Part shown: positions 21,993 through 50,112 of the stretch, piece by piece
Numbering within the stretch: position 1 is the first letter of the stretch
Layout: the number at the start of each line of letters is the position of its first letter
Made by a program: the position numbers and the translations under genes
Notes under the pieces: model-generated
Told to the model about the DNA's origin: nothing
What the model saw: only the letters and a program-made list of their open reading frames with translations
Databases searched by the model: none
From: Buchnera aphidicola str. Sg (Schizaphis graminum)
GTDB taxonomy: Bacteria; Pseudomonadota; Gammaproteobacteria; Enterobacterales; Enterobacteriaceae
Assembly (NCBI RefSeq): GCF_000007365.1
Contig: NC_004061.1
Coordinates: 1 to 64,000, forward strand
DNA: 64,000 nucleotides
Direction: 5' to 3'

Positions 21993-22014
21993 AAAAATTA
22001 TTTATTTCTGATTA

Positions 22015-22755
22015 TTAATATTCATCCCCCCTTACGTATTGTCTATAGCTATCCCATTCAAAAGTTAACCATAGACTATTACCTAAACGCATTCTATCAA
22101 TTACTCTTTCTCCTAATAAATTTTTCATACCTCTGTGATCTAAATTAGATAACATCCCAGTAGAACGCTTAGAAGATGATCTCCTATCAACTATTTGATT
22201 GATAATTACCTTCTCATAACGTGATTCAGTTTGCATACCAATTTCATCAATCATTAACAAATCAACACTACTAAGATTATGTAATAAATTTTCTTCAGTG
22301 ATATTACTAGTACCACTAAATGTACCTTTCATATTAGACATTAAATCTGCTACTGTTACAATTAAAATACTTTTTCCATGTAAAATTAAATAATTACCTA
22401 TAGCTGATGCTAAATGATTTTTTCCAGTTCCTGGTCTTCCTGAAAAAATAAAACTTGCAATGTTTTCATTAAATTCTTCAGCATAACGTTTTGCTGCTTT
22501 CAGTACCTTTCTTTGTCCATCATGTTCAATTTTATAGTTTTCAAAAGAACAATTCATATATAATTCACGTATTCCTGATCTTCCTAAAACGCGTTGCATT
22601 TTCATAGCTTTGTTTTCACGTAATATAGATTCTGAAGATAGCCTACCTTGTTCTTGATTCCAAGCTAATAAATCTTGATCACTTTCAAATTTTGGTTTTA
22701 CATTACTAGGCATAAGACGTTGAAGGCGTTTAAAAAATTCATTATAAAATGTCAT
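22015..22755 (-). CDS. dnaC: DNA replication protein DnaC (helicase loader)
   Basis: AAA+ ATPase that loads the DnaB helicase. 246 residues (E. coli 245). N-terminal DnaB-binding part with NRAMKMQR-like NKAMKMQRVLGRSGIREL, Walker A GRPGTGKNHLASAIG, Walker B LLMIDEIG, then EKVIINQIVDRRSSSKRSTG and LLGERVIDRMRLGNSLW. The start overlaps the dnaT stop in TAATG, so translation is coupled. DnaC/DnaT are restricted to enterobacteria and relatives, which supports the taxonomic placement. Confidence 0.97.
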   Translation of the reverse strand: MTFYNEFFKRLQRLMPSNVKPKFESDQDLLAWNQEQGRLSSESILRENKAMKMQRVLGRSGIRELYMNCSFENYKIEHDGQRKVLKAAKRYAEEFNENIASFIFSGRPGTGKNHLASAIGNYLILHGKSILIVTVADLMSNMKGTFSGTSNITEENLLHNLSSVDLLMIDEIGMQTESRYEKVIINQIVDRRSSSKRSTGMLSNLDHRGMKNLLGERVIDRMRLGNSLWLTFEWDSYRQYVRGDEY

Positions 22756-23255
22756 TACTTGCCTCGAAATCCATCAGGTGTTTTTTGATCAGGTACTGGT
22801 ATATAAGTAATATCTTTTTTTTGTTGTATTGCATTATTCATAGATCGACTTCGTTCTAAACTTCTAGCTAATTTCTGTTGCCATTGTATATGATGAAAAA
22901 ATAAACCTTCTGCTTCCCAATAGGAAATAAAGGAAGCAAGTTCATATTTTGAAACTTCTTCGTTTAATGATATTCCCCATAATGCAGCTTTTTGTATAAA
23001 ATCTTTGTCGGGAATCCAATTAGTATGCATTGGAAACTTTTCTATGATTTTTTTTTCTTTTTTTGTTATTTTACTTTTTACAAAATATTCTTTAATATCA
23101 AATAATTTTTTTAAAGCTTTTGGCTGTATTACATAAAATACAGTTTTTTTGTTTTTTGATATAGATATAATTTCATTTTTTTCTTTTTCTATAATTTGAA
23201 TTGGATTTTTGCAAAATAAGTCAAGAGTTATTTTTTTTGAAACTAAAATTTTCAT
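22755..23255 (-). CDS. dnaT: primosomal protein DnaT
   Basis: Component of the PriA-dependent replication-restart primosome, handing DNA to DnaC-DnaB. 166 residues (E. coli 179). The N-terminal half is divergent and lysine-rich. The C-terminal half carries the conserved block WIPDKDFIQKAALWGISL, LASFISYWEAEG and HHIQWQQKLARSLERSR, and ends PDGFRGK (E. coli PPGFRG). Shorter in the linker before the conserved block. Couples to dnaC by a 1-base overlap. Confidence 0.93.
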   Translation of the reverse strand: MKILVSKKITLDLFCKNPIQIIEKEKNEIISISKNKKTVFYVIQPKALKKLFDIKEYFVKSKITKKEKKIIEKFPMHTNWIPDKDFIQKAALWGISLNEEVSKYELASFISYWEAEGLFFHHIQWQQKLARSLERSRSMNNAIQQKKDITYIPVPDQKTPDGFRGK

Positions 23256-23299
23256 GAATATTTGATCCTATTTGCTTTTATTACAATGACTTTTATTTT

Positions 23300-23871
23300 T
23301 TAAATTTTAAAAAAGTAAAGATAACATGCTATTCTATTTGTAGTTTTCTTCTTATATAAAGTCCAATTTTTAGATATAAAAAAAGAATTTGTATTTTCTT
23401 TTTCTATATAAATCAATGATTTTTTTCTCACCCACTGTTTTTGTTCTAATAAAAAAAGAGTTTGGTCAACTAATTTTTGATTATATGGTGGATCTATAAA
23501 TATTATATCATACGGTTTTTTTTTTTTTTAAGCCAATCAAGAGTGTTAGTATGTATAATTTCTGAATTAGATATATTTAATCTTGTTATATTATTTTTTA
23601 ATGAAAATATTGTTTTCTTTTCTATTTCCAATAAGGTTACAAATTTTGCATTTCTAGATATAGCTTCTATTCCTAATGCACCGCTTCCTGCAAAACAATC
23701 TAAACAATGAGCATTTTCAATATATGCAGATAACCAATTAAAAAGTGTTTCTCGTATTCGATTTGTCGTTGGTCTTATATTTACATTATTTGTAATTAAT
23801 ATTTTTTTTCCCTTTAATTTTCCAGAAATAATACGAATTTTTCCGTTTTTTTTTGCAAAAGAATTGTGCAT
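23300..23871 (-). pseudogene. rsmD: 16S rRNA (guanine966-N2)-methyltransferase RsmD, split by a poly-A frameshift
   Basis: The first frame (23871 to 23503) encodes the N-terminal 118 or so residues of RsmD: NIRPTTNRIRETLFNWL, then the SAM-binding motif DCFAGSGALGIE. At minus-strand A14 (23516-23529) the frame shifts and a stop follows five codons later. With 12 (or 15) A the frame continues as KKKK-PYDIIFIDPPYNQ, containing the catalytic DPPY motif, and runs to a TAA at 23300-23302, about the full E. coli length (198). So the gene is complete except for two extra or one missing base in a homopolymer. It may be a sequencing error, a young pseudogene, or a gene rescued by transcriptional slippage. 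Divergent from ftsY, as in E. coli. Confidence 0.9.
23516..23529 (-). repeat. 14-base poly-A run inside rsmD
   Basis: Fourteen consecutive T on the + strand (A in the rsmD mRNA). The longest homopolymer I noticed in a coding region of this window, and the exact point where the two RsmD frames meet. Confidence 0.95.
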
Positions 23872-24002
23872 TTTATTAGATTTTCTTATTTTTTTAATAT
23901 AATTTATTTTATTATTAAATATAATTTAAATAAATATTTAATTTCTAGTTTTTTAAGTTATAAATAAAATAATTATTATTTGTTTAAATTAGGAGTAACA
24001 AG

Positions 24003-25058
24003 ATGAATTTTGATAAAAAAAACAGTTTTTTTTCTTGGATAAATTCTAAGATAAAAAAAAATAATAAAAAAGAAAAAAAAGAAAATATACTGTTAAAGAA
24101 AGAAAAAGAAGGTATTCATACAATACAAAATATTGACAATAAAAAAATAGATTTTCTTTTTAAATTGAAAAATAGTTTAAATAAAACTAAACAATTTTTT
24201 GGTGACAGCATTAGTCGTATTTTTTTATCAAAAAAAATAGATGATGCTTTTTTTGAGGAATTAGAAGACACGATGCTTCTTTCTGATATTGGTGTTCATA
24301 CTACAGATCAGATTATCAGTAAATTAATTAATGATGCAACACATAAAGAATTAAAAAATCCTGAAAAAGTTTATTTTCTCTTAAAAGAACACATGTATTC
24401 TATTTTAAATAGAGTAGAAAAACCTTTAAAAATATCTAATCATACCCCTTTTGTTATTTTGGTAGTAGGGATAAATGGAACTGGAAAAACAACAACAGTT
24501 TCTAAATTAGCAAAAAAATATAAATTAGCAGGAAAATCTGTAATGTTAGCAGCAGCAGATACATTTCGTGCTGCTGGTATAGAACAGTTGCAAATTTTGG
24601 GAAAACGTAACAATATTCCTGTTATATCTCAATCTTCTGGTTCAGATCCAGCTTCAGTGGCTTTTGATGCAGTAAAATCTGCTATATCAAAAAAAATAGA
24701 TGTTCTAATTATTGATACAGCTGGAAGATTACACAATAAATTACATTTGTTAGAAGAATTAAAAAAGATGGTTAGAGTTATTAAAAAATTAAATTTATCT
24801 GCTCCACATGAAATTATGTTGATTATTGATGCTTGTAATGGTCAAAATACTATTAAGCAAACAGAAATGTTTCATAAAGCAATAAACTTAACTGGATTAG
24901 TTATTACTAAACTAGATGGAACAGCAAAAGGAGGAGTTATTTTTTCTTTAGCTAATCAATTTTTAATTCCTATTCGTTATATTGGTATTGGTGAAAAAAC
25001 AACAGATTTAGTTGTTTTTAATAGTAATGATTTTATTAAATCTATTTTTGTGAAATAG
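24003..25058 (+). CDS. ftsY: signal recognition particle receptor FtsY
   Basis: SRP-dependent GTPase that docks ribosome-SRP complexes at the membrane. 351 residues against about 497 in E. coli: the long acidic A domain is reduced to about 50 residues, lysine-rich rather than acidic. The NG domains are complete: P-loop GINGTGKTTT at 156-165, DTFRAAGIEQL, DTAGRLHN, TKLDGTAKGG. AGGAG precedes the ATG. In E. coli ftsE and ftsX follow in the same operon; here the next gene is rpoH. Confidence 0.96.
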   Translation: MNFDKKNSFFSWINSKIKKNNKKEKKENILLKKEKEGIHTIQNIDNKKIDFLFKLKNSLNKTKQFFGDSISRIFLSKKIDDAFFEELEDTMLLSDIGVHTTDQIISKLINDATHKELKNPEKVYFLLKEHMYSILNRVEKPLKISNHTPFVILVVGINGTGKTTTVSKLAKKYKLAGKSVMLAAADTFRAAGIEQLQILGKRNNIPVISQSSGSDPASVAFDAVKSAISKKIDVLIIDTAGRLHNKLHLLEELKKMVRVIKKLNLSAPHEIMLIIDACNGQNTIKQTEMFHKAINLTGLVITKLDGTAKGGVIFSLANQFLIPIRYIGIGEKTTDLVVFNSNDFIKSIFVK

Positions 25059-49077: not shown

Positions 49078-50112
49078 TTACAATAATTTTACCTTTCCTA
49101 AAGAATTAATAAAATCTACCTCAGGTTCTAAGTATATTCCAAATTTTTTTAGAATGCATTTTTGTATTATTTGAGCTAATTTTAAAATGTCTTTGGAATT
49201 TGCTTTTTTAAGATTAATTAATATAAGTTTTTGTTTTTTATAAATTGCTGCATCACCAATTTGAATATTTTTAAAATTATACTTTTCAATTAACCAAGCA
49301 GCAGGAATTTTGATAAATCCATTTTTTTGGATGTAATATGGCATCTTCATGTATGAAGATAAAATTTTTTTTGTTTTTTTAGATGTAATAATAGGATTTT
49401 TAAAAAAACTACCTGCATTTCCTAATTTTTTAAGATTAGGTAATTTTTTTTTTCTTATCTGACAGACTATATTAAATATTTTATAAGCATTTATTTCTAA
49501 TATTTTTTTACTTTTTAAAAGTGATGAAAAAATAACAGGTTTCCAGTTTTTTTTTATTTTTATACCAACTGCAATAACTGCATATCCGTTATTATATTTG
49601 TATTTAAAAATACTGCTTCGATAAGAAAAATTACATGTTTTTTTTTTAAGTCTAATTGTTTTGCCATTTTCTAGAGAAATAACATCTACATACTGGCATA
49701 TATTTTTTAACTCTAAACCATAAGCACCAATATTTTGAATAGCTGCTGATCCTACTGAACCAGGAATTAAAGCTAAATTTTCTAATCCGAAGAAACCCAT
49801 TCTCAATGTATATTTAACTAAATCATGCCATTTTTCTCCTGAAAAAACATGTAATAACCAATTTTTTTTTTTTTCTTCAATTCTTATTCCCTTTATGCGA
49901 TTAATAATGACTACTCCTGCATAATTTTCTAAAAAAAGTACATTGCTTCCTTCGCCTAAAATTATATAAGGAATATTAGATAAATTACATGTTTTCCATA
50001 TTTTCATTAATGATTGAATTGTCTTAACAAAAATAATTTTTTTTGCTGTAACATTTATTGAAAATGTATTTAAATTTTTTAAAGATTGGTAAGATTTTTT
50101 TTTTTTATACAT
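49078..50112 (-). CDS. murB: UDP-N-acetylenolpyruvoylglucosamine reductase
   Basis: FAD enzyme that makes UDP-MurNAc for peptidoglycan. 344 residues (E. coli 342). FAD-binding LGEGSNVLF, LENLALIPGSVGSAAIQNIGA, FSYRSSIFK; catalytic serine in GNAGSFFKNP and glutamate in LEPEVDF. Extremely lysine-rich; the mRNA carries A12 (50095-50106, codons 3-6) and A13 (49862-49874), both in frame. In E. coli birA follows murB; it is missing here. Confidence 0.96.
   Translation of the reverse strand: MYKKKKSYQSLKNLNTFSINVTAKKIIFVKTIQSLMKIWKTCNLSNIPYIILGEGSNVLFLENYAGVVIINRIKGIRIEEKKKNWLLHVFSGEKWHDLVKYTLRMGFFGLENLALIPGSVGSAAIQNIGAYGLELKNICQYVDVISLENGKTIRLKKKTCNFSYRSSIFKYKYNNGYAVIAVGIKIKKNWKPVIFSSLLKSKKILEINAYKIFNIVCQIRKKKLPNLKKLGNAGSFFKNPIITSKKTKKILSSYMKMPYYIQKNGFIKIPAAWLIEKYNFKNIQIGDAAIYKKQKLILINLKKANSKDILKLAQIIQKCILKKFGIYLEPEVDFINSLGKVKLL

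Follow-up and report, generated by a model that had tools for sequence, protein, structure and literature searches.

The gene rsmD of Buchnera aphidicola str. Sg, predicted to encode the 16S rRNA (guanine966-N2)-methyltransferase, is divided into two reading frames at a long run of A, which raises the question of whether the gene has died, has been miscounted, or still yields enzyme across the break. It lies in the window analysed here (the whole stretch of DNA, 64,000 nucleotides) of a genome of 641,454 bp in one contig, labelled G000 below. A preliminary description had offered all three of these readings; the comparative data favoured rescue by slippage, and the other two survived at lower probability. 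Our preferred reading, to which we assign a probability of roughly 0.6, is that rsmD lost one base in a pure-A run and would still give some full-length enzyme through slippage on that run during expression.

Structure of the split rsmD locus

The two halves of the gene align with consecutive portions of RsmD models, which places them in the RsmD family (Table 1). The first half scored 122.1 bits against TIGR00095 (cut-off 117.5, profile positions 4-111) and carries DCFAGSGALGIEA, which we take to be the cofactor-binding motif, whereas the second half reached 50.1 bits (profile positions 124-187), below the whole-protein cut-off, as expected with only 71 residues. The intact RsmD of one relative, G009, matches E. 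coli yhhF (2fpo) with an E value of 1.4e-45. It was confirmed that both halves are well preserved, that their frames meet exactly at the run, and that FIDPPYNQ lies in the second frame. Read straight through A14, the 5' frame gives a 122-residue product. The absence of any other lesion in the second half was also borne out: neither an internal stop nor a further indel, the signs of a decayed pseudogene, was found there in G000 or in G023, the other genome with an A14 at this site, and the length to the stop (71 codons) is equal in G000, G007, G009 and G023.

Table 1. Coordinates of rsmD, its parts, its neighbours and the other split genes of the window genome
Feature	Position	Strand	Support
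rsmD, 16S rRNA (guanine966-N2)-methyltransferase gene, two reading frames	23300..23871	-	Pfam PF03602 in two pieces; NCBIfam TIGR00095 on both
rsmD first half, 114 codons to the run, carries DCFAGSGALGIEA	23530..23871	-	TIGR00095
A14 run of rsmD	23516..23529	-	exactly 14 T counted on the plus strand
A AAA AAC heptamer, 5' reading frame	23515..23521	-	sequence itself
TAA closing the 5' frame soon after the run	23503..23505	-	
rsmD second half, 71 codons, contains FIDPPYNQ	23303..23515	-	TIGR00095
TAA ending the second half	23300..23302	-	
TAA in the second-half frame, at the run start	23528..23530	-	
dnaT, next downstream gene, same strand as rsmD	22755..23255	-	NCBIfam NF002770
dnaC	22015..22755	-	NCBIfam NF005931
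ftsY, divergent neighbour of rsmD	24003..25058	+	NCBIfam TIGR00064
bioD-like gene split at A13 (outside the window)	G000:C1:318766-318778		
ansA split at A12 (outside the window)	G000:C1:580018-580029		

Because no stop interrupts the second half between A14 and its terminal TAA, one could imagine a two-part enzyme, in which this half would be translated from its own start and join the first, but this is hardly credible. A TAA closes the second-half frame at the run start, and the first in-frame ATG, GTG or TTG after that TAA is the GTG at 23431, well past FIDPPYNQ, by which an independent start was ruled out. In the surroundings, no Rfam family matched at its gathering score (22000-25000), no terminator-like site was found (22000-24100), and the 13 promoter-like sites in the latter interval, compared with a mean of 15.3 in shuffles, represented no excess.

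Length of the run across Buchnera genomes

The comparison set comprised 36 Buchnera species genomes, the window genome included, with one assembly per species; G007 and G009 were taken as the symbionts of Rhopalosiphum maidis and R. padi, G030 as that of Melanaphis sacchari, and G004 as that of Muscaphis stroyani. PF03602 was present in all 36. The split is more than chance, as a single uninterrupted match was obtained in 33 of them, and only G000, G023 and G030 have the gene in pieces. Delimited by the Trp-Leu codons on one side and the PYD codons on the other, the site measures 15 nt in 33 of the 36 genomes (G030 included) and 18 nt in G029, whereas G000 and G023 have 14 nt, pure A14 in both; the longest pure A stretch at the site in the other 34 genomes ranges from 4 to 10. 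Since 15 nt is the usual length in relatives, the lesion corresponds to one missing base, apparently lost from a coding run that had turned pure A. It has the form of a poly(A) frameshift, in which a coding run of roughly ten A or more has gained or lost a single base (here A14 in place of the 15 nt found in 33 of the genomes), and the earlier calculation that 12 or 15 A would give a full-length protein was arithmetically correct. The G030 gene is broken elsewhere, at an A10 near residue 83 where it is one base short of G007, G009 and G023, and this break appears to be the same kind of lesion, seen for a third time.

The identical run in G000 and G023 probably arose twice, once in each lineage, because G000 forms a group with the intact symbionts of Rhopalosiphum that leaves G023 outside. 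In a six-gene tree of the 36 genomes, G000, G007 and G009 formed a clade with support of 100 for both DNA and protein, G023 falling outside, and the branching order within the clade was unsettled (support 82 and 61). A shared ancestry of the two A14 runs is less favoured, because the intact sites of G007 and G009 are interrupted by T and C, and further lineages, e.g., G002, G005, G011 and G034, have the T as well. By hand count, the event numbers for the two histories are close (about 4 versus 5).

Selection beyond the run

The codon model covered 15 of the 36 taxa beyond the run and 14 taxa before it, and the three tests against omega = 1 beyond the run, when refitted to convergence, gave unchanged values. 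Beyond the run, the branches of G000 and G023 together had an omega of 0.144 versus 0.155 elsewhere; omega = 1 was rejected (2dlnL 11.97) and equality with the background was not (2dlnL 0.02). On these two branches jointly, the second half evolves like an intact gene. G023 alone gave 0.112 (2dlnL 9.12 against omega = 1) and G000 alone 0.193 (2dlnL 3.09, not significant at the 5% level), while before the run the values were 0.166 for G000 (2dlnL 8.33) and 0.051 for G023 (2dlnL 13.90), all of these branch tests also covering pre-lesion time. The earlier statement that selection still acts downstream finds significant support on the two branches jointly and on G023 alone, and falls short of significance on G000 taken singly. 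Estimates of omega for one branch scatter widely in a gene as short as rsmD (downstream 0.407 for G007, upstream 0.255 for G009). The second half is generally less constrained, background omega being about 0.085 before the run, and G023 pairs show a dN of 0.17-0.20 beyond the run versus 0.11-0.12 before it. Pairwise omega beyond the run agrees with the codon model in order of size (0.216 for G000-G009, 0.346 for G000-G007, and 0.249 for the intact pair G009-G007).

Neutral drift was simulated from the G009 sequence, with an assumed base composition and, for G000, the codon-model branch length. Had the whole branch been neutral, the second half would have gained on average 2.8-4.2 stops in G000 and 4.3-6.9 in G023, compared with none observed in either. 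The probability of zero stops in G000 was 0.016-0.049 with the whole branch neutral and 0.22-0.40 with only its last quarter neutral. For G023 the corresponding values were at most 0.003 and 0.016-0.037 at a branch length of 3.1 (beyond the run), and 0.002-0.010 and 0.10-0.18 at a branch length of 1.4 (before the run). A recent loss of RsmD function in the window's own lineage is therefore compatible with the simulation, as zero stops would be no rare outcome had neutrality been confined to the final quarter of the branch.

It is on this ground that a young pseudogene has to be weighed, i.e., a gene whose function ended recently through the loss of one base and in which further marks of decay have not yet been left. 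The G000-branch omega (0.19), not significantly below 1, and the last-quarter probabilities fit such a gene, and homopolymer frameshifts in Buchnera are commonly taken as recent inactivations in the available text of PMC3164680. On the other hand, G023 shares the lesion together with a conserved second half, and rsmD has been retained in all the genomes. We regard the young pseudogene as a serious but unlikely explanation, and the split genes described below bear on it in both directions.

Other genes split at A-runs

Histidyl-tRNA synthetase, encoded by hisS, is an enzyme that a bacterium cannot do without. Its single gene was found in all 36 genomes, unbroken in 34 and divided in two in G007 and G004; the breaks fall at an A13 in G007 (C1:463730-463742) and at or beside an A10 in G004, each being one base short by frame, and the two halves of the G007 gene match the histidyl-tRNA synthetase profile. 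A split at an A-run need not mean gene loss, because this indispensable gene is either expressed despite its split or carries miscounted runs, and the like break of hisS in two relatives speaks against taking the rsmD split as a recent death.

The window genome contains 13 runs of A12 or longer, and its genes split at such runs are rsmD, a bioD-like gene and ansA (Table 1); the latter two, split likewise, would be in keeping with recent inactivation of rsmD. Other genes with such runs stay in frame, e.g., a murB-like gene with an A13 at 49862-49874 of the window (minus strand). The survey of these runs also took in 20 stretches of G023, G007 and G009. Besides rsmD, seven assignable breaks were one base short by frame (bioD-like, apbE, tsaB, murI, ftsB-like, hisS and lepB) and four had the other shift (ansA, miaA in G007, miaA in G009, and orn-like), the remaining stretches being in frame, intergenic or without gene assignment. 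Matches of both halves to a single profile were confined to the bioD-like gene, apbE, hisS, the G007 miaA and ansA, and for murI, tsaB and lepB one half was matched; the names ftsB, orn, murB and bioD are our assumption from the appearance of the sequences. The miaA gene is split at an A12 in the same place in G007 and G009, with a shift opposite to that of rsmD, and Pfam IPPT matches two halves of the G007 copy. The lepB gene of G007 (signal peptidase I) is broken at an A15 near its start.

These counts also bear on a miscounted homopolymer, in which the DNA would be in frame and one A would have been lost by the assembly. Each species is represented by one assembly, and all five breaks in rsmD and hisS (those of the window, G023, G030, G007 and G004) lack one base, as undercalled runs would. 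In contrast, the four breaks with the other shift in other genes do not follow this direction, and the same count of 14 occurs in two genomes whose flanking codons differ (CTT/CCG versus CTC/CCA). As far as the accessible texts go, 8 and 10 homopolymeric frameshifts were recorded in two genomes at over 100x depth (PMC3164680), and manual curation left such run lengths as they were (PMC3890641). A miscount seems improbable.

Proposed expression through slippage

Rescue through slippage is favoured over these alternatives by the retention of rsmD in 36 of 36 genomes, the intact-like omega beyond the run, the second genome with A14, and the split in the indispensable hisS. Most likely, rsmD would be expressed at a reduced level through slippage by one nucleotide, either in the mRNA or on the ribosome. 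The coding run would have become pure A and then lost one base to leave A14, after which the frames could be rejoined by two routes: (i) RNA polymerase adding one A in the rsmD mRNA; (ii) a backward slip of the ribosome by one nucleotide at A AAA AAA or A AAA AAC. Either route would bring back the length that relatives usually have, and the protein would carry a loop of five lysines ahead of PYDIIFIDPPY. The frame change would have to occur within A14, because a TAA closes the second frame at the 5' edge of the run. In the solved homologues 2fpo and 2ift, the stretch aligned with this loop is dissimilar in sequence and two residues longer in one than in the other, and such variation makes it plausible that a Lys-rich loop is harmless. 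We infer slippage at A14, its route and its efficiency.

With regard to the ribosomal route, the A AAA AAC heptamer has what we take to be the shape of a -1 slip site. However, no stable fold was found after the run, where the sequence folded no better than its shuffled versions (z 0.88 and 0.75 in the window, 0.16 in G023), so a dedicated ribosomal signal, as in a programmed -1 frameshift, is not supported. Counting against the rescue reading, rsmD is not known to be indispensable in E. coli.

The premise of the preliminary description, that slippage had been reported in Buchnera, found mixed backing in the portions of the literature available. PMC3164680 and PMC5009743 support it, the latter quoting 12-50% corrected transcripts for frameshifted endosymbiont genes. 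In PMC5574713, 151 of 157 transcription insertions in Buchnera lay in homopolymers, which speaks for rescue, but a frame-restoring transcription error was not detected in its data, which counts against rescue.

A more far-reaching proposal is that frameshifts recur and are tolerated at the rsmD run, which would drift to pure A, lose one base and persist as slippage gives enough enzyme, acting as a constitutive down-regulator of rRNA methylation, and which may undergo later repair if A14 was ancestral to the clade of G000, G007, G009 and G023; we consider this quite speculative and distinctly improbable. A gene finder sees two broken pieces where the comparative signal points to a gene that is probably alive. 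A natural comparison is offered by the two lineages with an identical A14 and by two close relatives whose run is interrupted and in frame. It bears on the extent to which slippage keeps broken genes working in reduced genomes, a question that the split hisS in two relatives extends to indispensable genes.

Comparison with known systems

Slippage by -1 of the dnaX type takes place on A-rich heptamers. The rsmD locus resembles it in having an A-rich slip site and a -1 direction, but differs in lacking a stable downstream stem and in that the product would be the full-length enzyme instead of a programmed short form.

A closer likeness is found among the genes of Buchnera and Blochmannia in which transcriptional slippage rescues a poly(A) frameshift (Tamas et al. 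2008, PNAS, via PMC5009743, PMC3164680 and PMC3890641). That study is cited in PMC3890641 for the S. graminum genome and in PMC3164680 for a corrected locus in the Buchnera of Rhopalosiphum padi. The splitting of conserved genes by indels in polyA tracts is a recognised trait of symbiont genomes, that of the S. graminum symbiont included (PMC3890641), and 18 homopolymeric frameshifts as well as convergent inactivations, e.g., of murF, were described for Buchnera, the 18 being in Buchnera-Sg (Degnan et al. 2011, PMC3164680). Because these two papers describe such splits, also in this genome, the rsmD split belongs to a published class. The gene is unnamed in the main texts of both, and Table S3 of PMC3164680 may list it; in the open-access literature, no title or abstract start on a Buchnera rsmD/yhhF lesion and no paper on a Buchnera hisS frameshift were found.

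As far as those texts describe them, the genes of Tamas et al. share with rsmD a frame-breaking indel in a coding poly-A run and a conserved downstream half in Buchnera, while here the gene is rsmD, and an A14 is seen at the same site in a second lineage. The cases of PMC3164680 come from the same genome and likewise include single genes broken recurrently in several lineages; unlike those convergent cases, two rsmD breaks fall at one site. To these systems the present analysis adds the occurrence of A14 at one site in two lineages, a test for selection, and the comparison with hisS.
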